A DNA stretch of 64,000 bases from Streptomyces sp. WP-1 (GTDB taxonomy: Bacteria; Actinomycetota; Actinomycetes; Streptomycetales; Streptomycetaceae). Below the pieces are notes generated by a model, which had not been told where the DNA came from, did no database searches, and saw only the letters and a program-made list of their open reading frames with translations. A program made the position numbers and the translations under genes. Location of the stretch: positions 1,922,001-1,986,000 of the forward strand of contig NZ_CP123923.1 in assembly GCF_030450125.1 (NCBI RefSeq). The letters run 5' to 3'. Positions 11,552 to 24,674 of the stretch are shown here, in pieces; the stretch's first letter is position 1; each line of letters begins with the position of its first letter.

Positions 11552-12441
11552 GCCCGGCTCCCGGGATCGAGGGGTGGCTCGGCGGCGAGCGGGGGCTCGG
11601 CGGCGAGGGGTGGTGCGACGCTGACGACATGCCAGGGCGGGCGGGCCGCGAGCAGGGCGCGCAGCAGGACGTCGGAGTGGGAGACGGGGACGGTCAGCCG
11701 GTGGCGGCCGGGGCCGGTCTCCCCGGCGGTGGCGGCGAGCCGTGCCGCGTCGGGCGGCAGCGGTCCGGCGCCCTGTACGACGACGGCGGCGAGCGGCCCG
11801 GCGGCCGGACCGCCGCCGCCCGTACGGGCCTCGATCCCCCCGCCGGCCACGGTGTACGTCGCGTCCGGCGCCCCCGCGAGGCGTCGCGGGTCGTGGTCCA
11901 CGAAGACGACGGCGCCGCCCGCGGCGGTCCGCTCGGCCACCGCCCGCTCCAGTTCGTCCCGCGCGTCCGCGTCGAGCCCGGTCCACGCCTCGTCCAGGAC
12001 CAGCAGTTCGGGATCGGCGAGCAGCGCCTGCGCGACGGCGATCTTCTGGCTGCTGCCCTTGGAGAGCCGCGCCATCGGCGTCCCGGCGTACGCGGCCGCC
12101 CCGAACCGCTCCAGCCAGGCCCCGGCGGCACGGGCGGCGGAGGCGCGGGACAGGCCGTGGACGGTGCCGAGCCGGGTCAGGTAGCCGGCGGCCGTGAAGG
12201 GCAGCGCGGAGGGGAACCGCTCCGGCACGTAGGCCGTGCGGGGGCGGCCGGTGATCCGGCCCTCGGTGGGCGCGTCGAGCCGGGCGATCAGCCGCAGCAG
12301 GGTCGACTTCCCGGTGCCGTTCGCCCCCTCTATCCGGGTCAGGGTGCCGGGGGCGACGGTGAGGTCGACGCCTCGTAACACCCAGGGGCCGCGGACGCCG
12401 TAGCGGCGGCCCACGGCGGTCAGTCGCAGGTCACGGTGCAT
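11548..12441 (-). CDS. ABC transporter ATP-binding protein (exporter type)
   Basis: This is the cytoplasmic ATPase of a two-gene ABC system. The 297-residue product has Walker A (EGANGTGKSTLL, near residue 40), an unusual signature LSKGSSQK instead of LSGGQ, Walker B (LLVLDEAWTGLD) and the switch histidine (FVDHD). The ABC domain ends near residue 215; the remaining 80 residues are an Ala/Pro-rich tail that includes two copies of an AAEPPL repeat. It starts at the ATG at 12441, divergently from the Pth2 gene. The stop overlaps the start of the membrane subunit, which indicates translational coupling. Confidence 0.85.
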   Translation of the reverse strand: MHRDLRLTAVGRRYGVRGPWVLRGVDLTVAPGTLTRIEGANGTGKSTLLRLIARLDAPTEGRITGRPRTAYVPERFPSALPFTAAGYLTRLGTVHGLSRASAARAAGAWLERFGAAAYAGTPMARLSKGSSQKIAVAQALLADPELLVLDEAWTGLDADARDELERAVAERTAAGGAVVFVDHDPRRLAGAPDATYTVAGGGIEARTGGGGPAAGPLAAVVVQGAGPLPPDAARLAATAGETGPGRHRLTVPVSHSDVLLRALLAARPPWHVVSVAPPLAAEPPLAAEPPLDPGSRA

Positions 12442-12528
12442 GGGGTCATTCTTCTTCAGGTGGCCCGCGGGGCGTGGACGGTCCTCGCGACGGGGGACGC
12501 GCGCGGGTCCCGCCCCGGTGGGCGCGCG

Positions 12529-12558
12529 TTGCTCGGTGTGCGCCCGGCTTCGTAGGGT
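12529..12558 (+). promoter_or_regulatory. HrdB-type promoter of the leaderless pth2 gene
   Basis: TTGCTC (12529-12534), an 18-bp spacer and TAGGGT (12553-12558) match the Streptomyces housekeeping promoter. The -10 ends 8 bp before the GTG at 12567 and there is no Shine-Dalgarno, so the transcript probably begins at the start codon. Confidence 0.65.
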
Positions 12559-12566
12559 GGCCCCCC

Positions 12567-13295
12567 GTGAGCGATGTTCCGATCCCCGCCGAGACCCCCC
12601 TTCCGTCCCCGCGCGACGAGGCCCCGCAGTACGTGCTGCCCCTCGTCGTCCGCCTCGAACGCGATACGCCGCCCGCCCGCACCGACGCCCTGGAGACGTC
12701 CGCGCGGGCGGTCCTGACGCTGCTCGGCGACGAACGGGCCCTCGGCGACGGCGAGTGGGCCGAGGCCGTACGGAACTGGGAGGACGCCCGGATCCGCAAG
12801 GTGGTCCGGCGGGCCCGGGGCGCGGAGTGGCGGCGCGCCGGGACGCTGCCCGGGATCACGGTGACCGGCGGGAGCGCGGAGGTACGGGTCTTCCCGCCGA
12901 TCCCCCTGGACGGCTGGCCCAAGGACCTGGCCAAGCTCCAGGTCTCCGGCACCGAACTGGACGACCCCGAGCCCCCGTCGGACCCCGACCGCACCGCACC
13001 CGTCCTGTGGCTCAACCCGGATCTCGACATGTCCGCCGGCAAGGCCATGGCCCAGACCGGCCACGCCGCCCAACTCGCCTGGTGGGCCCTGCCCGCCCCC
13101 GCCCGCACCGCCTGGCGCGCCGCCGACTACCCCCTCTCCGTCCGCACCGCCACCCCCGCCGACTGGACCCGGCTCACCCACAGCGGGCTGCCGTTGGTCC
13201 GCGATGCCGGTTTCACCGAGATCGCCCCCGGGCTGACTGTTGCAGTGGAGGGCGGCGAACATTTCGCACCGCTGGGACGCTTGCGACGACCCTGA
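12567..13295 (+). CDS. Peptidyl-tRNA hydrolase, Pth2 family domain protein
   Basis: Pth2-family proteins release peptides from peptidyl-tRNA that has dropped off the ribosome. The 242-residue product carries the Pth2 domain in its C-terminal half: LNPDLDMSAGKAMAQTGHAAQLAWW (from about residue 150) matches the family motif with its Lys, Gln and His, and LPLVRDAGFTEIAPG the end of the domain. The N-terminal half is actinobacterial and of unknown role. The GTG at 12567 is chosen because a consensus -10 sits directly before it; the longer frame from 12474 runs through the promoter. A canonical bacterial pth should exist elsewhere, so this is probably a second, specialised hydrolase. Confidence 0.8.
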   Translation: MSDVPIPAETPLPSPRDEAPQYVLPLVVRLERDTPPARTDALETSARAVLTLLGDERALGDGEWAEAVRNWEDARIRKVVRRARGAEWRRAGTLPGITVTGGSAEVRVFPPIPLDGWPKDLAKLQVSGTELDDPEPPSDPDRTAPVLWLNPDLDMSAGKAMAQTGHAAQLAWWALPAPARTAWRAADYPLSVRTATPADWTRLTHSGLPLVRDAGFTEIAPGLTVAVEGGEHFAPLGRLRRP

Positions 13296-13454
13296 CCAGC
13301 CATTCGCCCCCGGTTCAGTGCCAACGTGCGCCAGCGCGATGGGCGTACGTCGTCCGGGAAGCCTCGGGACGCCGCGGAACTGGGGAGCCGATGCGACAGG
13401 CGATATTCCGATGAAGTCCTGACTACGCCGCGATCCGCCCACACGAACAGAACG

Positions 13455-13484
13455 GGGCCTTACGGTCGAACGACCGTAAGGCCC
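13455..13484 (+). terminator. Strong hairpin after pth2
   Basis: GGGCCTTACGGTCG (13455-13468) pairs perfectly with 13471-13484, leaving only AA between the arms. It lies 160 bp after the pth2 stop and 66 bp before the XRE regulator, so it insulates the accessory region from its left neighbour. Confidence 0.6.
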
Positions 13485-13515
13485 GTACCAGGTACGCCCG
13501 TTGCCTCAAGGAGTA

Positions 13516-13542
13516 CCGTTCTGAGTGTCGAGTTCAGAACGG
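13516..13542. promoter_or_regulatory. Candidate operator: perfect 9-9-9 inverted repeat before the XRE gene
   Basis: CCGTTCTGA (13516-13524) and TCAGAACGG (13534-13542) are exact inverted copies separated by 9 bp. The repeat ends 8 bp before the regulator's ATG and overlaps its Shine-Dalgarno. A site of this symmetry and place is the expected binding site of a dimeric XRE repressor controlling itself; this is inference. Confidence 0.6.
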
Positions 13543-13550
13543 AGTCCAGT

Positions 13551-14735
13551 ATGCCCCCGCCCTCTGTAGAACACACGGGCACACGCATCGCGCACGCGCG
13601 TAAAGCCCGTCGCCTGACCCAGCGTGAACTGGCCGATCTCTCCCACGTCTCCTACAGCACGATCACCAAGGTCGAGCAGGGCGCCATGCCGCCCAGCCCC
13701 TCGGTGGTAGGCGCGCTGGCCCGCGCCCTGTCTGTCCAGGTCTCGGATCTCAACGGCCAGCCGTATGTTGACGAGCTGCGACAGGACCAGCTGGATGGCC
13801 TCATCAACCCGATCCGCGAGGCGCTGAACATCTACGACCTCGGTCCCGACCCGGACGTCAGTCCGCGCGCGCTACCAGTGCTGCAGGAGCACGCCGATCA
13901 GCTGTGCGCCCAGGTGCGCGCCACGAACATCAAGCAGGTCGCGACGGAGCTGCCAGCGCTGATCCACGAGGCGACGACGACGGCTCACATCAGCGGAACT
14001 GCGCGCAGCTGGCAACTGCTGGCCACCACCTACCGGACCGCGTACGACGTCACGACCAAGCTCGGCTTCCCCGACTTGTGCACGGTCGCTCTGGACCGCA
14101 TGGACTGGGCGGCGCAGCGCGCCTCTGATCCGGTGCTGAGCGGCATGCGCCAGTACCTCCGCGCCCTGGCCTACCTGCGGGCGAGCGACTACAAGACGGG
14201 CAAGCGGCTGGTCCGCCTCGGCATGTCCACCCTGGAACAGGCCGAGCCTGGGCACGTCCTGGACGTCGTCACCGGGCAGCTGCACCTGGGCGCTGCCGTA
14301 CTCGCCGGCCGGGAGAAGGACACGGACACCGCTGAGGGACACCTCGCCGAGGCGGCCCGCATCGCGAAGCGCACCGGGCCGGCCGAGAAAGTGCATTGGC
14401 TGTCCTTCGGGCCCACGAACGTCGGCGCGCATCGAGTGAGTGTCCTGGCGGAGTTGGACCTGTACCCCGAGGCCGTACGCCAGGCAGAGGACATGGTGAT
14501 CGCGGACGGGTGGCCGCCGTCCCGGCTCGCCCACCATCATGCGGAGGTTGCGCGGGCCCAGATGTGGACGGGCCAGACCGAGGCAGCCTTCAAGAACCTG
14601 CTCAAGGCACGCAAGCTGGCTCCCCAGCAGACTCGCTATCACCCGACCGTCCGTGAGACCTATGCCGGACTGGACGCGGCGAGGCGTCGAATGCCTGACT
14701 CCTTCACCAATTACGGTTCCTGGCTGGGTATGTGA
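13551..14735 (+). CDS. XRE-family regulator with C-terminal TPR-like helical domain
   Basis: This 394-residue protein has an N-terminal helix-turn-helix (about residues 11-65; LTQRELADLSHVSYSTITKVEQG) followed by an all-helical region with TPR-like repeats. Examples are LRASDYKTGKRLVRLGMSTLEQAEPG and WTGQTEAAFKNLLKARKLAP. Proteins of this build are common in Streptomyces accessory loci, where the helical part is thought to sense a peptide or protein ligand. The ATG at 13551 has GGAG seven bases upstream and an inverted repeat directly before it. A rho-independent terminator follows the stop. The gene stands at the head of the graspetide region and is the likely regulator of it, though that is inferred from position. 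Confidence 0.85.
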   Translation: MPPPSVEHTGTRIAHARKARRLTQRELADLSHVSYSTITKVEQGAMPPSPSVVGALARALSVQVSDLNGQPYVDELRQDQLDGLINPIREALNIYDLGPDPDVSPRALPVLQEHADQLCAQVRATNIKQVATELPALIHEATTTAHISGTARSWQLLATTYRTAYDVTTKLGFPDLCTVALDRMDWAAQRASDPVLSGMRQYLRALAYLRASDYKTGKRLVRLGMSTLEQAEPGHVLDVVTGQLHLGAAVLAGREKDTDTAEGHLAEAARIAKRTGPAEKVHWLSFGPTNVGAHRVSVLAELDLYPEAVRQAEDMVIADGWPPSRLAHHHAEVARAQMWTGQTEAAFKNLLKARKLAPQQTRYHPTVRETYAGLDAARRRMPDSFTNYGSWLGM

Positions 14736-14751
14736 CGCCTCGATAACCGTT

Positions 14752-14791
14752 GGCCCTAGCTATCAGTGATGTCTGATAGTTAGGGCCTTTT
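14752..14791 (+). terminator. Rho-independent terminator after the XRE regulator
   Basis: A 15-bp stem with one G-T wobble (14752-14766 with 14773-14787) encloses a 6-nt loop and is followed by TTTT. This is the clearest intrinsic terminator in the window and separates the regulator transcript from the downstream small genes. Confidence 0.85.
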
Positions 14792-14883
14792 CATGTCGGC
14801 ATCCTGCTTACAGACGAACCCCCGCGACCGCGTCAACGGCCCGGGGGCATGGCCAGCGCTCGAACCCAACAGGGAGCGTCGAC

Positions 14884-15096
14884 ATGACAAACGCTACCGC
14901 CCAGACGTCGACGAACGCACGGGGTGGCCGGATGACGATGCGGGTGTACACCGTGGACCGCTACGGCATGATCACCCAGGACCGCGGCACGGTCACCGTG
15001 GCCATCGACGGCAAACTGCCGCCGCTGCCCCAGCGCGACTCCTACCCCGCGTGCCAGTGCCCGCTCCGCCGCCTCGGTCGGCCGGTGACCCGATGA
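14884..15096 (+). CDS. Small hypothetical protein of the graspetide region
   Basis: This 70-residue protein is not recognised. The N-terminus is polar, the middle (MRVYTVDRYGMITQDRGTVTVAIDG) reads as a short beta-rich domain, and the C-terminus contains CQC followed by arginines. GGGAG lies seven bases before the ATG. Its stop codon overlaps the next ATG by 4 bp (ATGA), so the two products are translationally coupled. Placement suggests a role with the downstream RiPP genes or regulator, but nothing in the sequence names it. Confidence 0.65.
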   Translation: MTNATAQTSTNARGGRMTMRVYTVDRYGMITQDRGTVTVAIDGKLPPLPQRDSYPACQCPLRRLGRPVTR

Positions 15097-15476
15097 ACGC
15101 CACCGCGAAGCAGGCTGCGAGCACGGAGCAGGTGGACACCGCCACCATGCGCCAGAACGTGTTCCTGGCACTCGAGCCCGGGGGCGAGACCGACGCGCCG
15201 CCCCTGGCACCCGAGAAGCGCGGCTCCCTCATCTTCATGCTGCGCGACCATCTGGTTCAGTTGATCCCCGAGGTGGAGAAGAAGCTCGGCCAGCTGCCGA
15301 GGGAGAGCTCCGGCCGGTACTGCGTGAGCGCGTGCGTCGGCGAGGCCCGCGGCAAGCTCCAGGCATGCCCGGCCCGCGGCCCCGACGGCGAGGTGGAGTA
15401 CGCCCGTCGCCTGGCCCGTGTCCTGCGGGCGCTCCTCGACCACTTCGAAGACGCCGGGACGCCGTCGTCACAGTGA
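15093..15476 (+). CDS. Hypothetical protein, DUF6415-like
   Basis: This is a 127-residue soluble, helical protein. The stretches LRDHLVQLIPEVEKKLGQLPRESSGRYC and ACVGEARGKLQ...RLARVLRALLDHFED recall the DUF6415 family that accompanies Streptomyces natural-product loci; I make that match from memory and with limited certainty. The start overlaps the preceding stop (ATGA), and the stop overlaps a following GTG (GTGA). This gives a coupled chain of small genes. Two cysteines in YCVSAC are close together; there is no metal motif beyond them. Confidence 0.6.
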   Translation: MNATAKQAASTEQVDTATMRQNVFLALEPGGETDAPPLAPEKRGSLIFMLRDHLVQLIPEVEKKLGQLPRESSGRYCVSACVGEARGKLQACPARGPDGEVEYARRLARVLRALLDHFEDAGTPSSQ

Positions 15477-15695
15477 GGACGATCGCCGGCCTGCTCCTGG
15501 ATGTAGCCGCTGTGACCGCCTCTGCCCTCGTCCTGTGCTTACGAGGGCCTCGCACTGGAGCACTCCCATGGCGGCCGTCTCGGGTCAGGGCCGCACCCAC
15601 CAGTCCCGCCGCTGGAAGGCAGCTGGCTCGCCTTCCGCCACGAGCGCGGCGGGACCGCCACCCCGCCCGGAATCCGGAAGACCCGGGCGGGGTGA
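15473..15695 (+). pseudogene. Possible small frameshifted gene
   Basis: A GTG at 15473 overlaps the previous stop and opens with a hydrophobic stretch (IAGLLLDVAAVTASALVLCL) that would be a membrane helix. The GC-rich third-position pattern then leaves this frame. It continues in the +1 frame (LEGSWLAFRHERGG...IRKTRAG), which stops at 15695, directly before a Shine-Dalgarno. The sense is of one gene with an indel between about 15516 and 15600. It could also be two overlapping short frames, or not coding at all. The product is not recognised. Confidence 0.3.
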
Positions 15696-15713
15696 GCGCC
15701 ACGAAGGAGAACG

Positions 15714-15931
15714 ATGGAATCCGAGGACAACGCCTTACCGGTGCCTGCGCCCTTCATGTTCACCTGCACCGGCTGCTGGTCCTCCTGGCCGAGAAGATCT
15801 GGGCGGACGCCGGCTGCTCCGCCGAGCAGATCAACCTCGCGCGACACATCGCCACAGAGCACCCGGGCGAAGTGCCCTCGTGGCCCAGCTGCTGTAGACG
15901 CGCTCTGTACCAGCCGGGGCGATCCACCTGA
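15714..15931 (+). pseudogene. Small C2H2-type zinc-finger-like protein with an apparent 1-nt frameshift
   Basis: An ATG at 15714 with AAGGAG just upstream starts MESEDNALPVPAPFMFTCTGCWSSW, which carries a CxxC pair. In that frame the sequence then becomes arginine- and proline-rich noise. A shift of -1 near 15786 joins it to AEKIWADAGCSAEQ and NLARHIATEHPGEVP, which carries HxxxxH. The joined protein would be a compact CxxC/HxxxxH finger of about 72 residues. Loss of one G from a TGGGCC run explains the break. It is either a decayed gene, a sequencing error or a programmed shift; I favour the first two. The unshifted frame continues to 16151. Confidence 0.45.
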
Positions 15932-15974
15932 CGAACGGCCGAACGCCGACTGGGTCCAGGCACTTAGACAGACC

Positions 15975-16029
15975 GCTCCCCGTGTGAGGGCGTCACCTCA
16001 CACCGGCCTTAGCGCCCGGCGCGGGGAGC
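15975..16029 (+). repeat. Nested inverted repeats upstream of tgmA (structured RNA candidate)
   Basis: An outer stem pairs GCTCCCCG (15975-15982) with CGGGGAGC (16022-16029). Inside it GTGTGAGG (15982-15989) pairs with CCTCACAC (15996-16003), and CCGG at 16003-16006 can pair with CCGG at 16016-16019. The layout resembles a three-way junction. It lies 135 bp before the precursor gene, so it could be an attenuator, a terminator of the upstream small genes or a leader element. Confidence 0.45.
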
Positions 16030-16163
16030 ATGGCTTCTTGTTCTTCCACGGCAAGCAACGCCCCATGCCGGGTCTCTGCACCATCACCCACGCCGGGTAT
16101 CGGTGCGGAGCCCACACAGATCAGGCTCGGCATCCGCCGCGCCGTCATTGACAGGAGAGGCAC

Positions 16164-16460
16164 ATGACAACAGCGCTCGACCACGAAGCGTTTCCGCTCA
16201 CCCCGCTTGGGAGCACGACCCCCTACAGCAAGGAGATGCCGTCCGGCCCGGATACCCGGCCGTGGGTGCTGCGGGGTGCCCGCATCCCCGACTCCACTGC
16301 GGCCATCCCCCTCCCGGCTCACGAGTACGACCGGGGACGGCAGGTCAGCATCTCCTACGACGGTGGCCTGCTGACCTGTATGGCCAACACGCACTCGCCG
16401 ACGGTGCCGGACGGCTCGGTCTCGAACCCGCCTCCGCTGGACGAGGGGCCGAAGGACTGA
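16164..16460 (+). CDS. tgmA: Putative ATP-grasp-modified RiPP (graspetide) precursor, TgmA family
   Basis: This 98-residue protein has the plan of TgmA-type precursors. The leader runs to about residue 65 and contains the RPWVLR motif (32-37) expected to dock the ATP-grasp ligase, then HEYDRGRQVSISYDGG. The likely core (about 66-98) is rich in hydroxyl donors (Thr71, Thr76, Ser78, Thr80, Ser85, Ser87) and side-chain carboxylates (Asp83, Asp93, Glu94, Asp98) that such ligases join as esters. An Asp-Gly pair at 83-84 is a candidate aspartimide site. AGGAGAGG lies just before the ATG. The stop overlaps the tgmB start (TGATG). Exact cleavage and ring pattern cannot be read from sequence. Confidence 0.85.
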   Translation: MTTALDHEAFPLTPLGSTTPYSKEMPSGPDTRPWVLRGARIPDSTAAIPLPAHEYDRGRQVSISYDGGLLTCMANTHSPTVPDGSVSNPPPLDEGPKD

Positions 16461-17425
16461 TGTCCGCGCCCGTTCTGATCGTCGCAGCTCGCGATGACTG
16501 GCCTACGGACCGGATCGTGGTCGAGCTGGAGAGTCGCAGCGTAGACGTGTTCCGCATGGATACCGCGGACTTCCCGCAGCAACTCGGCCTGGCCGGCCGG
16601 ATCGACCAGGAGCAGGCGTGGACGGGCGAACTCGCCACCGAGTACCGGACGGTGGAGCTGTCCCGGGTCGGCGCGGTGTACTACCGCGCCCCCGGGGCGT
16701 TCCGGTTCCCCACGGGGATGTCCGGCCCGGAGGCGCGGTTCGCCGCCGCCCAGGCCCGCGCCGGCCTCGGCGGTGTCCTGTCCGCACTGGACTGTCGATG
16801 GGTGAACCATCCCACGGCGATGGCGCGCGCCGAGTACAAGCCCGTGCAGCTTGCCGCCGCTCGCGCGTGTGGGCTTCGGATTCCAGCCACGCTGATCACC
16901 AACCGGCCAGGCGATGTGCAGAAGTTCGCCATCGAGGCTGGCGGACCAGTGGTGTGCAAACCGGTGTCCTCGCCCGTACTCATCGAGGACGGTCGCCTGA
17001 AGTCCGTCTACACCAAGCGGCTGAGCCCGGACGACCTGCTCGACCTGCGCGGGGTCAGCACAACCGCGCACCTGTTCCAGGCGTGGGTGGACAAGGCGTA
17101 TGAGGTGCGCCTGACCGTCGTCGGCAGGCAGATGTTCGCCGCGGCCATCCACGCCGACAGCGACGCCGGGCACGAGGACTGGCGCAGCGACTACGGATCT
17201 CTCACCTACACGACCAGCGCAGTGCCAGGGGTGGTGGCGACTGGGATGCTTACCCTGATGGACCGGCTACAACTGCGTTACGGTGCAGCTGACTTCATCG
17301 TGGGACCCGATGGGCAGTGGACGTTCCTGGAGGTCAACCCGTGCGGGCAGTGGGACTGGATCGCCTCGGCGACCGGCCTGCCGATCGCCGAGGCGATCGC
17401 CGATGAACTGCAAGGAGTCAGCTGA
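16460..17425 (+). CDS. tgmB: ATP-grasp ribosomal peptide maturase, TgmB (SAV_5884-type)
   Basis: TgmB is the ligase expected to activate Asp/Glu side chains of TgmA with ATP and join them to Ser/Thr hydroxyls or amines. The 321-residue protein has an N-terminal pre-ATP-grasp domain (1-115; YYRAPGAFRFP). After the linker WVNHPTAMARAEYKP (114-128) come the ATP-binding Lys167 in VVCKPVSS and the magnesium-binding block GAADFIVGPDGQWTFLEVNPCGQWDW (275-300) with Asp278, Glu291 and Asn293. All catalytic positions are present, so the enzyme looks active. Start and stop codons overlap those of tgmA and tgmC (TGATG at both junctions), a sign of tight coupling. Confidence 0.92.
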   Translation: MSAPVLIVAARDDWPTDRIVVELESRSVDVFRMDTADFPQQLGLAGRIDQEQAWTGELATEYRTVELSRVGAVYYRAPGAFRFPTGMSGPEARFAAAQARAGLGGVLSALDCRWVNHPTAMARAEYKPVQLAAARACGLRIPATLITNRPGDVQKFAIEAGGPVVCKPVSSPVLIEDGRLKSVYTKRLSPDDLLDLRGVSTTAHLFQAWVDKAYEVRLTVVGRQMFAAAIHADSDAGHEDWRSDYGSLTYTTSAVPGVVATGMLTLMDRLQLRYGAADFIVGPDGQWTFLEVNPCGQWDWIASATGLPIAEAIADELQGVS

Positions 17426-18552
17426 TGGACTGGAAACCATATGCAGCCGCCCTCGCGGCCGAGGTCACGTATCCGGGCTCGGCCTGGTGGGGCCCGGTCA
17501 GCGCTACACCCCGGCACCAGCTGGTGGGGCGCTGGTTCACGCCCGGCGGGGGCGGCTGGAAGATGGTCGACGGTCCCGCCGACAAGGAGACGTGGGCTCG
17601 CGCTGCCTACTCGGACACGACGCTGGTCACGCGGATCGGGCCGGTGCACGCCGACCTGGCCGAGCCCGGCCAGACGTACACCGGACTGCCCACCTCGTCC
17701 TCCACGCACCCGAGCCTGGTCCTCACAATGCTCCGGCACGGCCGCCTCGCCCCGGGCGCGCACCTGCTGGACGTGGCCACCGGCTCCGGATACAGCGCCG
17801 CTCTGGCCTGCCACCGGCTCGGCGCCGAGATGGTGACGACACTCGACGTCGATGCGTATCTCTCGGAGGCGGCTGCCGAGCGGCTGGAGCGTATCGGCTA
17901 CCGCCCGGACGTCGTCGCCGCCGACGCCACCGCCGACCTGCCTGGCGTCTTCGACCGGATCGTGTCCATGGTGTCCGTACCCCGAATTCCCGCCTCGTGG
18001 CTGCGCGGTCTCGCTCCGCACGGGCGCCTGGTGACGACGATCGCGGGCACCGGACTGATCGTCACGGCCGATAAGGGGCCCGACGGCGGCGCGATCGGCC
18101 GGGTCGAGTGGGACCGGGCCTCCTTCATGGCCACCCGGGCGGACGCCGACTACCCGCCCCGCCTCGATGAACTGTTCGCCGCCAGCGGGGAGGACGGCGA
18201 GGTGACCTTGTCACCGTTCCCGGTGCTGGACGTGATGCAGGCGTGGGACCTGTGGTCGATGCTGTCGCTGATGGCGCCGGGGATCGAGCACCGCACCGGC
18301 ACCGATGACCGTGGGGGCCGCTTGACGTGGATGCTGCACTCTGACGGGTCATGGGCGCGGGCCCGGACCGCGCCGGGCGAGCGCACCGCGACCGTCCACC
18401 AGGGCGGCCCGCGCCGCCTTTACGACCTGCTGGACGAAATCCGCTGGCGGTGGCTGGAGCACGGCGAGCTTCCCGTGTACGGGGCACAGGTCACCATCAG
18501 CCCTGACGGTGTGACGACGCTGTCGCGGGGCGGCTGGACGGCCACGCTCTGA
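17425..18552 (+). CDS. tgmC: PIMT-like methyltransferase of the ATP-grasp peptide maturation system, TgmC
   Basis: This 375-residue protein combines a protein-L-isoaspartate O-methyltransferase (PIMT)-like SAM domain with a longer C-terminal region. The SAM-binding motif is LLDVATGSGYSAA (114-126), preceded by the PIMT-like TGLPTSSSTHPSLVLTML (86-103) and followed by VTTLDVD. In characterised graspetides with such partners (for example fuscimiditide), the PIMT homologue methylates a core aspartate, which then cyclises to an aspartimide. That role is proposed here by analogy. The C-terminal part (about 220-375) is typical of the SAV_5885-like family, not of housekeeping PIMT, and probably recognises the peptide. 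It starts on the tgmB stop codon. Confidence 0.9.
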   Translation: MDWKPYAAALAAEVTYPGSAWWGPVSATPRHQLVGRWFTPGGGGWKMVDGPADKETWARAAYSDTTLVTRIGPVHADLAEPGQTYTGLPTSSSTHPSLVLTMLRHGRLAPGAHLLDVATGSGYSAALACHRLGAEMVTTLDVDAYLSEAAAERLERIGYRPDVVAADATADLPGVFDRIVSMVSVPRIPASWLRGLAPHGRLVTTIAGTGLIVTADKGPDGGAIGRVEWDRASFMATRADADYPPRLDELFAASGEDGEVTLSPFPVLDVMQAWDLWSMLSLMAPGIEHRTGTDDRGGRLTWMLHSDGSWARARTAPGERTATVHQGGPRRLYDLLDEIRWRWLEHGELPVYGAQVTISPDGVTTLSRGGWTATL

Positions 18553-18617
18553 CCGGCTCGGGGTGCCCGGCCCGTGGATGCGCGGCACACTGAAGACGGC
18601 CAACGAGGGAGGGACCG

Positions 18618-18950
18618 ATGGACGACGAGCCCCTTGCGGAATGGGCAGAGCGCCGCGAGCTGCGCCGCCCGGCACGCGGGGAGCGGCGGGCCACCCCGCT
18701 CGGCGACCGGCCGGAACAGGGCGCGCACGTAGACCCGGACACTCCGCGGTTCATCCAGGAGTGGGACGGGTGCCAGTGGACACCCACCGGCGTCGCCGAT
18801 GACCGGGGCGCTGCGGCCGCCGAGGCCGGGAGGGACGCGAACGCCCGTGCCGAGCGCGTCCCTCTGCCGGCGTTAGGCAAGCTGCCGCCCATGCCCGAAC
18901 CCTGGCGCCCTACCCAGCCCTTCTACCGTCCTGCTACACCAAGGCAATGA
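18618..18950 (+). CDS. Hypothetical protein, DUF6087-like
   Basis: This 110-residue, charged, cysteine-poor protein has a central RRATPLGDRPEQGAHVDPDTPRFIQEWDGCQWTP stretch. It recalls DUF6087 proteins that recur beside Streptomyces accessory and RiPP loci; the match is from memory. GGGAGGG lies just before the ATG. It follows tgmC by 65 bp on the same strand, and a GC-rich hairpin closes the run. The function is unknown; the tail MPEPWRPTQPFYRP is proline-rich and probably disordered. Confidence 0.65.
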   Translation: MDDEPLAEWAERRELRRPARGERRATPLGDRPEQGAHVDPDTPRFIQEWDGCQWTPTGVADDRGAAAAEAGRDANARAERVPLPALGKLPPMPEPWRPTQPFYRPATPRQ

Positions 18951-19302
18951 CCAAGCTGGCCCTGCCCGGCCGTTGCCCCCGAGGCGGGCGAGCAGGGCCT
19001 TCCACGTTGCTCGTCCGCGGGCATGCCGAAGAGCCCCCGCCGTAGGGATGCGGCGGGGGCTTCGCTTTCAGTGCTGTCAGCGTTGCGGGTCGAGTCCGAG
19101 GGACCGCAGCGCGCTGGTGGGCGTGTCGTGGTCGGTCGGCTGGGGGTGCTGTCCCTTCTGCAGACCAGCGCGCCCGGGTCGTCGGCGGGCGCTTGGAGGA
19201 GGCCAGGAAGTGGGCGTGGGCCTCGAATTCGTCGGCCAGCTCGGTGCTCACCAGTACCTTGGCCAACGCGCCTTGGTCCACGGCCATCACCACCCTGGAC
19301 AT
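18934..19302 (-). pseudogene. Possible degraded reading frame
   Basis: On the minus strand from an ATG at 19302, about 37 codons (MSRVVMAVDQGALAKVLVS, then a TELADEFEAHAHF stretch) show coding-like third positions. The composition then loses that bias, and the frame runs into the hairpin at 19033-19061. No Shine-Dalgarno is visible and the product is not recognised. I read it as a remnant with low certainty. The rest of 18951-19481 holds only the terminator. Confidence 0.25.
19032..19061 (+). terminator. GC-rich hairpin closing the graspetide region
   Basis: GCCCCCGCCG (19033-19042) pairs with CGGCGGGGGC (19051-19060) around an 8-nt loop; A32-T61 extends it by one pair. TTCGCTTT follows. It lies 82 bp after the DUF6087-like gene. 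Confidence 0.65.
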
Positions 19303-19481
19303 GCCGGAGCCCGGCGCACAGGCCGGGCTCGTGGTGGTGGGGGATGGCAGTGTTCGGCGGGAGACCACTCGACTGCGCTGCCAACGTCTCACACAATCAG
19401 CGCGCAGCGATCTTCTGTCAAGCATGGGCTGTTCAGCTCGGCTGATCTCCGAAGGCGCAGAGCAACCTTGTGGTCGCTGCT

Positions 19482-20045
19482 CTACGACGAGACCGTGACA
19501 TCCGTGATCTTGGCGCTCACCTTCGCTGAACGGCTCGCGGTGGAAATCGAGACCGGCGTGTAGGAGAGCTGGTCCTGATCACTCAGTTCCATGGTCTGGA
19601 TGACGGGGCCGCTGGTATCACCATGAACTTCATACGTGATCGAATAGGACTTGTCCGGGTCGAGCGGCGTGACGCCGGCGTACGTCAGGTTCGGCTCGAC
19701 AGTGACGTTGCATCCGGCACTGCCGAAGCACTGGCGCTCAGTGGTCTTCAAGGTCAAGGCGAAGTCGTCCGGCACTGGACTGTCGTTGTAGCTCGCCTCG
19801 GTGGCCTTGGCGTCGTCCTCAGCAGGTGCCGCAGATGCAGAGGCGACCGTCTTGGGCTTGGAGACCGGAGCCGAGCTGTCAGAGCCGGAGATGATCATTA
19901 CGGTGACTCCAGATGAGATGCCCGCGATGAGCACAGCCGCGATCACCATCCAGAGCACGGCGCGTCTGCGCGTGGACCTGGGTGGCGCTGGCGGAGCGGT
20001 CGGCATCGGCGGCAACTCGGGAGCGATCTCCGGTCTCTCGTCCAT
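19482..20045 (-). CDS. Membrane-anchored extracellular protein, unknown function
   Basis: This 187-residue protein has a cytoplasmic proline-rich start (ELPPMPTAPPAPP), one membrane helix (about residues 32-52; AVLWMVIAAVLIAGISSGVTVMII), a Ser/Ala linker and a C-terminal beta-rich domain of about 110 residues. The domain has one cysteine pair (CFGSAGC), probably disulfide-bonded outside the cell, and resembles the single Ig-like domain of small actinobacterial MmpS-type or DUF4352-like proteins; I cannot assign the family. The ATG at 20045 has GAGAGGA upstream. Base composition is somewhat less GC-rich than the flanking core genes, in line with acquisition by transfer. Confidence 0.65.
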   Translation of the reverse strand: MDERPEIAPELPPMPTAPPAPPRSTRRRAVLWMVIAAVLIAGISSGVTVMIISGSDSSAPVSKPKTVASASAAPAEDDAKATEASYNDSPVPDDFALTLKTTERQCFGSAGCNVTVEPNLTYAGVTPLDPDKSYSITYEVHGDTSGPVIQTMELSDQDQLSYTPVSISTASRSAKVSAKITDVTVSS

Positions 20046-20161
20046 GCAGCGATTCCTCTCGGTTCCCAAAATGGTTGACTGTCATGGCAGTTAACACGGG
20101 TTCGATGCAGCTTCAACGGGCATTGCCCCACTCGTGACCTTGCAGCTGGCCACACATTGGG

Positions 20162-20670
20162 TCAGGCGGAGCAAGGAGTGTCAGCGATGTCGGCCAAGTC
20201 CCACAGGGCAAGGGCCTGGCCGCGGTTGGGGTTAGGCCGTGATCCGGCCGGGTGCAGGGCGCCGCGGCGCGCCCAGTCACGGAACGTCTTGGGCTGCATG
20301 CCGAGCGAGCATGCGGCTTGAAGGGTGGTGACGAGGGGCCGGCAGTCACGTCCGGTGGTGTTCGCGCTGGTCCCGCGTCCAGTGTGCGGCCACGGTCCGC
20401 AGGATGGCCGGAGTCCGTAGTCCTGGAGAGTCGTTGGGGCCGGGCATCGGTAGGTTCGCCGTGCTGGCGCTGTGTCTTGGCGGGTCCGGCGCAGCAGCGC
20501 GGGGTGGTGCCCGCGCACGGCCAGGCTCCCGTCACCGACGAGGGCTTGGCCATGTGCAGTGGCACGCTGGCCGCATGCATCGCCTGATCCGCCGCATGCT
20601 CGGCATGGGCCCGTGCCCGTCCAAGGCCGCGCTCGCCGGTGGCCACGGCTTCATCGACCAGTTCGTACAA
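20162..20670 (-). pseudogene. Frameshifted helix-turn-helix (MerR/excisionase-like) gene
   Basis: The 3' end encodes a good small HTH domain: TTLQAACSLGMQPKTFRDWARRGALHP followed by GSRPNPNRGQALALWDLADI. Upstream the coding pattern moves between frames. RTVAAHWTRDQREHHRT is in a second frame just before the HTH, and a clean start (MYELVDEAVATGERGLGRARAHAEHAAD) is in yet another at 20670. Together they look like one gene of about 165 codons broken by at least two indels. An intact version would be a DNA-binding protein with a helical N-terminal part. The 110 bp to the right hold no feature I can support. Confidence 0.4.
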
Positions 20671-20780
20671 AGGCTTCGGGATCCGCGACCTCTAACCGCC
20701 GAGGACTGGCCTAGCTGACGACCTACACGGGTGGCGCGGCGCGGCGGTCGTTCTCTGCTCTGTACGACGACGAGGACTGA

Positions 20781-21020
20781 TCACGGTGAGCGCCTCGCCG
20801 CCCGGAAGTGCGACGAGGTGCTCGCCTGGACTGCGGTCGGCCAATGGGACTGGTTCGGGTAGATGAGCCACGCGTACGCCTCGGCGAGGTTCTTCAGCCC
20901 CTCGGTTCGTGCGGCGCTTCCACCGTTCGTCTGAAGGGCGGCCACTGCCTCGGTGATGGCGTTGAAGAGGGCCGCCTGCGCCCCAGCCTTGGCGTTGCTG
21001 GTTTCCTGATTGAGCGGCAT
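20781..21020 (-). CDS. Small hypothetical helical protein
   Basis: This 79-residue protein is not recognised. The sequence from the ATG at 21020 (MPLNQETSNAKAGAQAAL) is an amphipathic helix-rich domain with no cysteines or membrane segment, ending in an unconserved basic tail. AGGAG sits five bases before the start, which makes translation likely; the longer reading from 21062 lacks this support. It belongs to the run of tiny island genes. The next minus-strand gene (21138-21290) is upstream, so the two may form one transcript. Confidence 0.6.
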   Translation of the reverse strand: MPLNQETSNAKAGAQAALFNAITEAVAALQTNGGSAARTEGLKNLAEAYAWLIYPNQSHWPTAVQASTSSHFRAARRSP

Positions 21021-21137
21021 TCGTTCTCCTGGCTGGTTCTCACGGTGTCGTTCGTGCTGCATGGCAAGCTGGCCCTAGCACGCGCGGTGGGCCCTGGCTT
21101 CGCCGATTCGGCCGGCAGAGCGAGGGCCCGACTGCGG

Positions 21138-21290
21138 CTACAGAGCAGCGCTGATGACGTAGCCGATCGCGCCGACGGCCAGGAGCGGCAGGCCGAGCGC
21201 GGCGCCCTGCTGCTTGGCAACCTTGCTCAGGTACGCCTGCGCAGCCAGCGCCGCGATCATGGCCACGGCCGCCTTCTGCTTCTTCGGCAT
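21138..21290 (-). CDS. Tiny membrane protein
   Basis: This 50-residue protein begins MPKKQKAAVAMIAALAAQAY and continues with a second hydrophobic stretch (GLPLLAVGAIGYVISAAL). It thus has two short hydrophobic segments with a basic N-terminus, which suggests insertion in the membrane with the N-terminus inside. A near-ideal Shine-Dalgarno (GGAGG, eight bases before ATG) makes this a convincing gene despite its size. The function is unknown; size and build fit a phage-type holin, a toxin of a type I system or an accessory membrane peptide. Confidence 0.65.
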   Translation of the reverse strand: MPKKQKAAVAMIAALAAQAYLSKVAKQQGAALGLPLLAVGAIGYVISAAL

Positions 21291-21676
21291 GTTCTTCACC
21301 TCCCCTCCACACAGAGTTGGAAGGAAGGATGACACGAGGGTCCGACAACGGCTTTGCGATTACGGGAAGTTGCGAGCGGGCCGGGGCTCTGCCCCTCCCA
21401 GACGCACGGGTTCGCGCGGCCCGCTCGTGACGCCGACGGTGTACGACCGCCCGGTACGCCTGCCCTCTGCCGGGGGCTCGACGCCAGCGTACGCCTCATG
21501 CACCGACCACATGATTGCCCGTCTTCTGTGGATCCTGAGACACCACTGGACACCGTCGGACATACTTCCAACCAGGTTCATCTCCCCCTTGTGCGCCACG
21601 AGTTAGCAAGGCGACGGTCCCCGTGGCGGCGCCGTGGGCGCCGGACTGCTCGCGGAGCGTGAGGGAGGAAGTGAAC
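21291..21676. other. Gene-free stretch in the island
   Basis: No frame here has a convincing start, Shine-Dalgarno or coding-type composition. It probably holds the divergent promoters of the two tiny membrane-protein genes that flank it, but I cannot place -10 and -35 elements with confidence. Confidence 0.4.
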
Positions 21677-21907
21677 ATGTGTCCTGTAGGCAACCTGCGG
21701 CGCCTCATTGAGGCGCTGTTACCCAGGTGGGCGGACTCGCGCGATCAGCGCGCCGATGCCTACCGAGCCTTGCGCGTGCGGTTCCGCGTCCGATGGACCA
21801 GTGACCGCGCGCAGCGCTGGCTTGACCAGGTAACGGCCAGTACGGTTGCAGCCGTCCTTGCCGCCCTCCTGGTCTGGGCACTGCGACACGGTCACTGGCT
21901 GGTGTAA
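21677..21907 (+). CDS. Small protein with C-terminal membrane anchor
   Basis: This 76-residue protein has an arginine-rich cytoplasmic part (RRLIEALLPRWADSRDQRADAYRALRVRFRVRWTSDRAQRW) and one C-terminal membrane helix (VTASTVAAVLAALLVWALRHGHWLV). The ATG at 21677 is preceded by GGAGGAAGTGAAC, nearly the same ribosome-binding context as the tiny gene at 21138-21290 on the other strand. The longer reading from 21623 is rejected for lack of a site. The function is unknown; tail-anchored and positively charged, it could bind nucleic acid or a partner at the membrane. Confidence 0.6.
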   Translation: MCPVGNLRRLIEALLPRWADSRDQRADAYRALRVRFRVRWTSDRAQRWLDQVTASTVAAVLAALLVWALRHGHWLV

Positions 21908-22133
21908 AGGTGGCCCCTCGTCGTCTACGCCAAAGGCACGAGGGGTCACCCGCATCAGGTGGTGCCACGAACCGCACGACCCCACCCAAACGCATCCATA
22001 GATGCGTGATGTCTCTACCCTAGCGCTCCAACAAATCTGGTGTCTGGGAAATGTGGCGGCCGACCCAACCGGGCTAGATTTGCGACTTCGCGCGGCGCTC
22101 AACTTTCCGAAACTTTGGTCCCCCCCAGATTCG

Positions 22134-22547
22134 TCACGAATCTGCCGTCGGCCTCATCAGCCGTGCGTCCGTCACCCGCTGACGTGCCCGGCGACCGGCT
22201 GACAGGGAGCGGTCCACCACTCTGCGGCAAGCTGACTCCAGCCGTGATCGGTGCTCGCGTCCTCGGGAGCGGTCGGCGCGGATGGTGGCGGCGGTGATAC
22301 CGGTCAGCTGCTCGATCTCGCGGGCGGTGTATAGCCGTACGGGCTCCAGGTCGGCGGCCTGGCGGTCGAGGTACTCGGTGACGAACCGGTCCACGGCGGC
22401 CGGATCGAAGACGAGGCATCTGCCGCGCTTCTCGGGCAGCGGCTCGGGCCACTGCGGGTGGCGGGCCCACTGGTTGCGGACGGTGGTCAGCGCGGCTGTG
22501 GCGGCAGCGATCTCGGCGTACGTCTCACCGGGCGACGTGTCTACCAA
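22134..22547 (-). CDS. Putative DNA-binding protein with two HTH-like segments
   Basis: This is a 137-residue basic protein. The N-terminal half (ETYAEIAAATAALTTVRNQWARHPQWPEPLPEKRGRCLVFDPAAVDRFVTEYL) reads as an AlpA/MerR-like winged helix. The second segment, LYTAREIEQLTGITAATIRADRSRG, is another HTH. The start is a TTG at 22547; AAGGA lies about 14 bases before it, so initiation is uncertain. The C-terminal 40 residues look less conserved and could reflect a late frameshift. Such proteins are usually regulators of island or plasmid functions. Confidence 0.55.
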   Translation of the reverse strand: MVDTSPGETYAEIAAATAALTTVRNQWARHPQWPEPLPEKRGRCLVFDPAAVDRFVTEYLDRQAADLEPVRLYTAREIEQLTGITAATIRADRSRGREHRSRLESACRRVVDRSLSAGRRARQRVTDARLMRPTADS

Positions 22548-22881
22548 TGGGGGTGTCCGTCCTTCGTGGATGGTTAGTGACGGGGCAACGCGGCGGTTCG
22601 GGGACGCGCCCTCGCTTCAGCTGGTGCAGAGCGCAGTCGACGTTGGGAGCCGGGCGGTGGTTCACGTGTCGGCCCTCCAGATGACGGTGACAGGCGCGCC
22701 GTGTCCCTCGCTGACTGATACGACACCGGGATTGACCGAGATCGCTCCAGGTTCGTGCACGGTGATGGCTGATCATCCGGCGTTGCGCTGAGCGCACCTC
22801 CTGCCGAACTTGGCCTTGACCGGATGTCGGGCCGGTGGGATGGTCCGCCCGACCATCTCTGAAGCCGGAAGGTGATGACAG
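22548..22881. other. Gene-free stretch in the island
   Basis: Only short frames without ribosome-binding sites are present. One, 22681-22791 on the plus strand, would give 36 residues but has no Shine-Dalgarno. No hairpin, repeat or promoter stands out apart from GGAAGG before the next gene. Confidence 0.4.
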
Positions 22882-23331
22882 ATGCGGTTGAGGGATGCCC
22901 GGGACCAGATCGAGCGGGAGCACCCGGAACTGACCGGCACCGCCAAAATCGAGGCGATCAAAGCGTTGAGGACGAAGGCAGCCGCGTCCGCCGTCACCGA
23001 ACCGGAACCGGTGGTTTGCCGCCGCCACTGTGGGCGCTGCGGCCAGGACATGAAGCCGGTCGAGAAGCACGGGTGGTCCAGGTTTCTCAGCTGGCTCGCG
23101 CTCCTCGAATTCGGCTCTGTGATCGCCGCGACCGCCGCCGCGGTCACCACTGTGAACCCCGACAGCGGCGGCGGCATCAGCAGACTCGTCCTCTGGCCCG
23201 CCGCCGTGCATCCGGCCTGGCTGGGCATCGTCGCCGCGATCGCCGCGTTCATCGTCACCGCGGGCTTGGCCGGGTCGGCCGGTCGGCGAACCGCAGCGGG
23301 CACGGCCTGCCCCGAGTGCGCTCGTCGTTAG
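22882..23331 (+). CDS. Small zinc-ribbon membrane protein, unknown function
   Basis: This 149-residue protein starts with a charged helix (MRLRDARDQIEREHPELTG). It then has a cysteine cluster CRRHCGRCGQDM (about residues 46-57), two membrane helices (about 73-92 and 113-133) and a final CPEC. The two cysteine pairs flank the membrane part and could together form a zinc ribbon on the cytoplasmic side. GGAAGGTGA precedes the ATG. It is the last gene of the accessory stretch before the MFS transporter. No family is recognised. Confidence 0.65.
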   Translation: MRLRDARDQIEREHPELTGTAKIEAIKALRTKAAASAVTEPEPVVCRRHCGRCGQDMKPVEKHGWSRFLSWLALLEFGSVIAATAAAVTTVNPDSGGGISRLVLWPAAVHPAWLGIVAAIAAFIVTAGLAGSAGRRTAAGTACPECARR

Positions 23332-23402
23332 CTTCGAAGAACGGTCTCGCGTGGGGCAGCGGCTGCATTAAGGTGCACGCTCCACCAAGTCCGAGGGGGA
23401 TC

Positions 23403-24674
23403 ATGGAGACGGCCACCGGCTCACCGAAGGCATCGAAGCCCCCGGAGGCGCCCAAGACCCTCGAATCGCCCCTGCGCCTCCCCGCGTTCCGGCGGTTCGT
23501 GGCGGCGAACGTGATCTCGGCGTCCGGGTCCGCGATGGCGCCGCTCGCGCTCGCCTACTCGGTGATCGAGGAGGGCGGCGGGGCTGGGGCGCTGGGGCTC
23601 GTGCTCGCGGTGAACACCGTGCCCACGATCCTGTTCCTGCTCATGGGCGGCCTGTTCGCGGACCGGTGGTCGCGCAGCCGCATCCTGTTCCTGGGGAACC
23701 TCGCGGCGGCGGGCGCGCAGGGGGTGCTGGCCGTCACCGTGGCCACCGGGCACGCGACGACGGTGTCGATCGCGGTGTGCGGCTTCGCGTCGGGGACGGC
23801 GGCGTCGTTCATCGTGCCGGCCACCCAGGGTGCCGTCGCGCAGATCGTTCCCGGGGAGCACCTCCAGCAGGCCAACGCGCTGCTGCGACTGCCGGGCAAC
23901 GCGGTGAAGGTGCTGGGTCCGGTCGTCGGCGGCTTCGTCGTCGCGCTGAGCGGCGCGGCCTGGGTGCTGGCCTGGGACGCCTGCACGTTCGCCGTCGCCG
24001 CCGTCCTGCTGCTGGGCCTGCGCCTGGCCGTGCCGCCCGCCGCGGCCCGCGGTGTCCTGGCCGATCTGCGGGCCGGGTGGGCGGGGTTCCGGTCCCGTAC
24101 CTGGCTGTGGACCTACACGGCCGCCGGGACCGTCCTCGTCGCCGCGTGGCTGGCGGGCTTCCAGCTGCTCGGCCCGCTCGTCGCCGCCCGCCGGTACGCC
24201 GGGGCGCGCGACTGGGGCCTGGTCCAGGCGGCGTTCTCCTGCGGGCTGCTGGCGGGCACCGTGGTGTGCCTGCGGTGGAAGCCGTACCGGCTGCTCGCGG
24301 TCGCCGTCGCCGCGGGCGGTTCGCTCGCGTTGCCGCTGGCCGCCATGGCCTGGGGCATGGCGCTGCCGTTCGTGCTCGGGGCCGCCTTCCTCGCGGGGAT
24401 CGGGCTCGATGTCGCGGTCGTCGCCTGGACCACCGCGTTCCAGCAGCATGTGCCCTCGGCGGAACAGGGCCGCATGAGCGCGTTCAACGGTGTCGGCGAA
24501 CGGCTCGCCATCCCCCTCGGCTATCTCCTCACCGCCCTCGCGGTGCGCGCGTGGAGCAGCCAGGGGGTGCTCCTGGCCTGCGCCGCGCTGATCGTCGCGA
24601 CGACCGTGCTCAACCTCTGCGTCCCGGATCTGCACCGCGTCGACCGGGTCCCCCGGGAAGCCGGTCCGGCCTGA
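23403..24674 (+). CDS. Major facilitator superfamily exporter
   Basis: This 423-residue MFS transporter has 12 predicted membrane segments. The loop between helices 2 and 3 (GGLFADRWSRSRILF) is the standard MFS motif A. It resembles the drug-exporter and MFS_3-type proteins that expel small hydrophobic compounds. GAGGGGG sits before the ATG at 23403; the longer reading through the upstream gene is discarded. It borders the accessory island and could export an island product or be a core gene; the next genes (DUF692 pair) are on the same strand but 136 bp away. Confidence 0.82.
   Translation: METATGSPKASKPPEAPKTLESPLRLPAFRRFVAANVISASGSAMAPLALAYSVIEEGGGAGALGLVLAVNTVPTILFLLMGGLFADRWSRSRILFLGNLAAAGAQGVLAVTVATGHATTVSIAVCGFASGTAASFIVPATQGAVAQIVPGEHLQQANALLRLPGNAVKVLGPVVGGFVVALSGAAWVLAWDACTFAVAAVLLLGLRLAVPPAAARGVLADLRAGWAGFRSRTWLWTYTAAGTVLVAAWLAGFQLLGPLVAARRYAGARDWGLVQAAFSCGLLAGTVVCLRWKPYRLLAVAVAAGGSLALPLAAMAWGMALPFVLGAAFLAGIGLDVAVVAWTTAFQQHVPSAEQGRMSAFNGVGERLAIPLGYLLTALAVRAWSSQGVLLACAALIVATTVLNLCVPDLHRVDRVPREAGPA

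Follow-up and report, generated by a model that had tools for sequence, protein, structure and literature searches.

We found that a 64,000-nucleotide stretch of Streptomyces DNA (the whole stretch analysed, hereafter the window) carries a gene cluster that very probably makes an aspartimide-type graspetide, predicted to be a bicyclic hairpin with two esters in which a PIMT-like methyltransferase would act at Asp83 of the precursor. Three overlapping open frames on the forward strand encode a 98-residue graspetide precursor, TgmA (16164..16460; TIGR04186, 41.6 bits, cut-off 25), a 321-residue ATP-grasp graspetide synthetase, TgmB (16460..17425; TIGR04187, 409 bits, cut-off 350), and a 375-residue PIMT-like O-methyltransferase of family PF01135 (17425..18552; 44.3 bits). 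The sequence TGATG stands at both the tgmA/tgmB and the tgmB/PIMT junctions, with one base common to stop and start. A preliminary description had reported these three genes and their overlaps, and both observations held. It had also given the ligase an intact Lys167 and an ELxVNP-type metal motif; Lys167 is present, within VCKPVSSP, but the metal motif reads FLEVNP (residues 289–294). Residues 5–317 of TgmB align with the solved ATP-grasp proteins 9bou and 5ig9. Relatives are already named tgmA and tgmB in NCBI records, and the named relatives are nearly all from Streptomyces.

Systems of this kind have been described before. Graspetide clusters that include a PIMT constitute group 13, the graspimiditides, for which PMC13001092 gives four characterised products; the surveys count 1326, 962 and 1432 PIMT-graspetide clusters (PMC13001092, PMC10787088), and PMC13097080 puts predicted graspetides at more than 20,000, with group 13 nearly always accompanied by a PIMT. 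The window cluster has the features of this group: a TgmA-family precursor beside a TgmB-family ligase, a PIMT in the operon, and a core with Thr, Asp-Gly and acids. The product had earlier been called undescribed, and we found no description of the product of the window's subfamily in the literature searched, from which its core and leader strings were also absent (supplements and subscription papers lay outside that search). Since systems of this type are well documented, at most the product of this subfamily is new. The subfamily may itself figure among the sequence clusters in the supplements of the earlier surveys.

A precursor search returned 95 homologues at E ≤ 0.001 among 96 candidates, giving an alignment of 96 rows with the query; the search favours relatives with exact shared words, which inflates the conservation reported here. 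Thr76, Thr80 (T/S), Asp83-Gly84, Asp93, Glu94 and Asp98 were jointly kept in 95 of the 96 precursors, and the sole exception, P0095, leaves the family right after Thr80 and looks frameshifted. This alignment had been proposed in the preliminary description as a check on its reading, and the C-terminal Thr/Ser and the acids that it singled out, at 83, 93, 94 and 98, were conserved as it expected, together with the RPW leader motif (R32 in 93, P33 in 92 and W34 in 89 rows). The mean majority frequency over the 96 rows rose from 0.67 in residues 1–30 to 0.75 in residues 31–75 and 0.90 in residues 76–98, and the core pattern, TH.PTVPDG...NPPPLDEG.KD, has two arms, which supports a two-arm core for the window precursor. 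Residues 66–75 were less conserved, with gaps at 74–75, and we therefore set the predicted core block at T76–D98 (THSPTVPDGSVSNPPPLDEGPKD; 16389..16457, forward strand), which shares T-x-P-D-G with many usual group 13 cores. The core had previously been placed at about 66–98; the conserved block lies inside that span, but a start near 66 is unproved, strong conservation begins at Thr76, and the weaker conservation of residues 66–75 speaks against the whole span as core. T76 and T80 stand as predicted donors but Thr71 does not: Thr is found at 71 in 78 of the 96 rows, and Thr71 appears dispensable because all 18 rows without T/S at this position still have D93, E94 and D98.

We cross-checked the core in precursors adjoining PIMT matches, a set found independently of the precursor search. 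The precursors of L002–L007 and L022 keep the core block, except that of L002 (Streptomyces sp. Ru71), which reads VPGG, a natural Gly for Asp83, beside an uninterrupted PIMT; this locus counts against the Asp83 model. Both parts of the precursor are under purifying selection, with a small difference between them (dN/dS as a ratio of means, 0.27 for residues 76–98 and 0.37 for residues 1–75; 7 sequences, 21 pairs). Comparing the precursor with solved structures gave only three matches, with E values of 0.43 or worse, and comparing it with phages gave none. The near-constancy of the subfamily core in many Streptomyces points to a single specific function.

In the route that we propose, TgmB would bind the leader through the RPW motif and, with ATP, activate acid side chains near the C-terminus, which would be joined to Thr76 and Thr80 as omega-esters. 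As the core has two threonines four residues apart, as in fuscimiditide, we predict two esters; the most plausible pairing has an outer ring between Thr76 and Asp98 and an inner ring between Thr80 and Glu94 (or Asp93). Together these would give a bicyclic hairpin resembling fuscimiditide. The PIMT-like enzyme would methylate Asp83 in the loop, and attack by the Gly84 amide would then yield an aspartimide able to open to isoAsp or Asp. Cyclisation would presumably come before methylation; the graspimiditide PIMTs described in PMC13001092 leave linear precursors unmodified.

Fuscimiditide, made by ThfA/ThfB/ThfM of Thermobifida fusca, resembles the window system in its long leader with RP[FW], its loop aspartimide and its PIMT partner (PMC12291112, PMC13003496, PMC13001092), and its core likewise has two Thr four apart and an acidic C-terminal arm ending in -KD. 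Its esters are given as T3–D22 and T7–D18 in PMC12291112, which describes the native protease of known graspimiditides as not determined, and its C-terminal stem as DVEKD in PMC13003496. By contrast, the window core has a Pro-rich loop, NPPPL, and a possible Thr–Glu ester, and T76–D98 spans 22 residues rather than the 19 of fuscimiditide. The SsfA/SsfB/SsfM system and the usual Streptomyces group 13 clusters share with the window the TgmA and TgmB families, T-x-P-D-G and a PIMT after the ligase (PMC10787088). According to the same source, the modified residue of SsfA is Asp81, followed by Gly82 and Asn83; its last fragment covers residues 63–97, its final 12 residues include four Asp and no Glu, and it carries five esters. 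The usual cores, such as GTSPDGNGSTQDSDTGNDTDQ (L073), contain more Thr and Asp than the window core, and their TSPDGN fits the Asp81-Gly82-Asn83 of SsfA, which we compared by its printed description. The TVPDG of the window matches the usual TSPDG by motif, and we infer from this match to the SsfA site that Asp83 is methylated.

The pairing of a TgmA/TgmB graspetide with a PIMT for the Asp-Gly site, as first described, agrees with the families, the alignment and the literature, but the PIMT falls outside the TIGR04188 type. This model of the usual graspetide methyltransferase was passed by all five usual PIMTs scored (paralogues and relatives, 424–468 bits), whereas the window PIMT reached 250.2 bits against a cut-off of 380 and all six non-usual PIMTs scored (the window's and five others) missed it. 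The motif WXXXGXP, conserved in graspimiditide PIMTs (PMC13001092), was present in 31/31 usual PIMTs but in 0/11 window-type, 0/4 L100-type and 0/36 radical-SAM/other PIMT rows, two of the last being too short to show it. A variant, WXXXGXLP, was found in 11/11 window-type and 10/36 radical-SAM/other rows. As the window PIMT neither reaches the TIGR04188 cut-off nor carries WXXXGXP, it could have a different substrate from the usual enzymes.

Phylogenies placed the window-type PIMTs among radical-SAM-paired ones (84 rows) and split 13 usual graspetide PIMTs from the other 46 with 100/100 support (59 rows). Within the 46, four L100-type rows branched first, three of them adjoining another TgmB type, and the 11 window-type rows (100/98) lay inside a 42-row clade (100/99) whose other 31 rows are radical-SAM-paired or unassigned. 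On these trees, the window methyltransferase lies outside the usual graspetide lineage and groups with radical-SAM-paired enzymes, its nearest relatives beyond its own subfamily. The METHYLTRANSFERASE lineage occurs at 64% identity or more in 8 of 199 Streptomyces genomes among the PIMT matches listed; seven of these are window-type (G000, G055, G176, G013, G167, G075 and G166, with damage in at least three), whereas in the eighth, G017, a radical-SAM gene precedes the PIMT. Among 40 tree rows at 42–63% identity, the gene directly upstream was a radical-SAM relative in 26, a TgmB in 3 and neither in 11. In the window itself, no radical-SAM gene lies directly upstream of the PIMT; tgmB stands there instead. 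The radical-SAM-paired PIMTs differ from the window's in having no TgmB match nearby, and for such two-gene radical-SAM/PAMT clusters, PMC10787088 reports 249 examples, no precursor found and no known substrate.

Several features of these other loci were recorded. The one radical-SAM protein checked, that of L054, exceeded the cut-offs of PF04055 (48.7 bits) and SPASM (34.4 bits), and the proteins beside the PIMTs carry CxxxCxxC in 8 of 11 cases and CxxxCxxxC in 3. Those of L051, L052, L054, L056–L061, L063 and L064 have a C-terminal Cys/Asp-rich tail (for example, ACxPDDSGDCDPANTxACDP); in L054 (4232–5113) the Pfam SPASM match stops at residue 261, ahead of the tail. The tail could be an iron–sulphur site or an attached PIMT substrate. 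L100, L101 and L106 represent a further graspetide type, with the core ETQTETSNGDG..PGSDSGTDLY, whose PIMTs also miss the TIGR04188 cut-off (L100 and L106 scored).

Because its branch is common to radical-SAM-paired enzymes, the window PIMT probably moved between peptide systems, and the trees make an exchange of PIMTs between graspetide clusters and radical-SAM pairs likely, in either direction and in one event or more. A single-origin account of the move was set aside: approximately unbiased (AU) tests do not settle it, and window-type and L100-type ligases fall together in the TgmB tree (99/98) although their PIMTs do not in the PIMT tree. One could instead regard the cluster as an ordinary group 13 cluster with a divergent relative of the usual PIMT, the radical-SAM pairs having taken theirs from graspetide clusters. 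We find this possible but doubtful: the ligase grouping favours it, and the AU tests rejected neither a tree holding window-type and L100-type PIMTs together (p 0.133) nor one that keeps every graspetide-associated PIMT on a single side (p 0.368), but the full support separating the usual PIMTs, the nesting of the window type among radical-SAM-paired rows, and the distributions of WXXXGXP and TIGR04188 all argue against it. Whatever its origin, the enzyme might act on another site or protein than the core Asp83, as may hold for its radical-SAM-paired relatives. Its position among those enzymes, its missing WXXXGXP, the Gly83 of L002 beside an uninterrupted PIMT and the reported lack of a precursor in the radical-SAM pairs would all fit such a target. 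However, the PIMT start overlaps the tgmB stop, Asp83-Gly84 is retained in 95 of 96 precursors, and the window-type PIMTs form one clade, beside which the precursors found are of the window type; we therefore consider another target improbable.

The number of rings can also be questioned. The near-invariant residues include three acids but just two threonines, and a third ring would arise if Thr71 or Ser/Thr78 were also esterified and D93, E94 and D98 all served as acceptors; 82 of 96 rows have T/S at 78, and Thr at 71 is nearly as frequent. We judge this rather unlikely, as T/S is missing at 71 in 18 rows and at 78 in 14, and five rows lacking it at both positions retain all three acids. The two-ester hairpin with PIMT action at Asp83 remains our preferred reading.

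Although the cluster was first described as complete with three genes, a DUF6087 gene recurs directly downstream, and the cluster therefore probably extends beyond them. In the window, this candidate fourth gene (18618..18950, forward strand; 110 residues; PF19565, 102 bits) begins 65 bp past the PIMT stop. We compared 17 distinct window-type loci, of which five have a broken PIMT. The DUF6087 gene directly follows the PIMT in 13 of the 17; that of L003 is inverted and 3.5 kb distant, and none was found in L001, L131 or L132. Across 199 Streptomyces genomes, DUF6087 gave 52 matches in 43 genomes, and 20 of these genes follow one of the PIMT matches listed at no more than 300 bases, in the same orientation. 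A tblastn search added three PIMT-adjacent genes (L147, L148 and L156) and a further one that follows a PIMT fragment (L162), bringing the count to 24 of 52; it found no PIMT within 1.5 kb of 20 of the other 28, and the remaining 8 were compared with the PIMT matches listed only. By a hand estimate, well under one such pair would be expected by chance. The PIMTs ahead of DUF6087 include the window type and usual ones of three kinds. A pairing with radical-SAM-paired PIMTs was rejected: 37 loci (L051–L067 and L100–L119) gave four matches and no clear pair, two being window-type (L053 and L118), one lying behind another PIMT gene (L066) and one marginal (L105, E 8e-4). The AlphaFold2 model of DUF6087 was poor (pTM 0.48), a Foldseek search with it gave no match at E 0.001 or better, and the family is not named in the literature searched. 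We regard DUF6087 as a probable accessory protein.

The other neighbours are less closely tied to the cluster. The XRE-type helix-turn-helix regulator at 13326..14735 (forward strand; PF13560/PF01381) has relatives (32–79% identity) at four of the 16 other loci (L002, L004, L006 and L069), 2.0–3.7 kb upstream of the PIMT; this is a weak link to the cluster, as such regulators are common in the genus Streptomyces. The DUF6415 gene at 15093..15476 (forward strand; PF19979), whose link to the cluster is uncertain, was upstream in just 2 of the 16 (L002 and L005) and was not counted as a cluster gene. Downstream, on the reverse strand, we read by eye from the translations a small membrane-anchored protein (19482–20069) and a small helix-turn-helix protein (22134–22547), possibly part of a mobile stretch. 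An Rfam scan of 12000–24000 gave no match. The host genome (one contig, 7.62 Mb) has five TgmA and five TgmB matches; the cores of its four other TgmA/TgmB pairs are unlike the window's, and in one of them, L015, no PIMT was seen in the 1.5-kb flanks.

Several window-type loci are damaged (L001, L004, L008, L009, L053, L068, L118 and L131), which argues that the product is not essential. In L053, L068, L008, L009, L118 and L131, tgmB or the PIMT survives as fragments or split frames, and in L053 a transposase-like gene lies immediately upstream of the broken PIMT. The same cluster is also found on Streptomyces plasmids, including L130 (Streptomyces zaomyceticus), where genes for an integrase and a phage portal are close by.

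These results tie graspetide PIMTs to radical-SAM/PAMT pairs that have no known substrate, and they make DUF6087 a gene worth including when such clusters are expressed. We tentatively suggest, as a joint reading that is far from assured, that the PIMT was exchanged between graspetide clusters and radical-SAM/PAMT pairs and that DUF6087 is an unrecognised partner of RiPP aspartyl methyltransferases, which could, for example, present the cyclised substrate or handle the aspartimide product. Linking aspartimidylated RiPPs to biological function is described in PMC13001092 as the bigger challenge ahead. If the joint reading is true, this cluster, with its known precursor, would offer a handle on the targets of the radical-SAM pairs.
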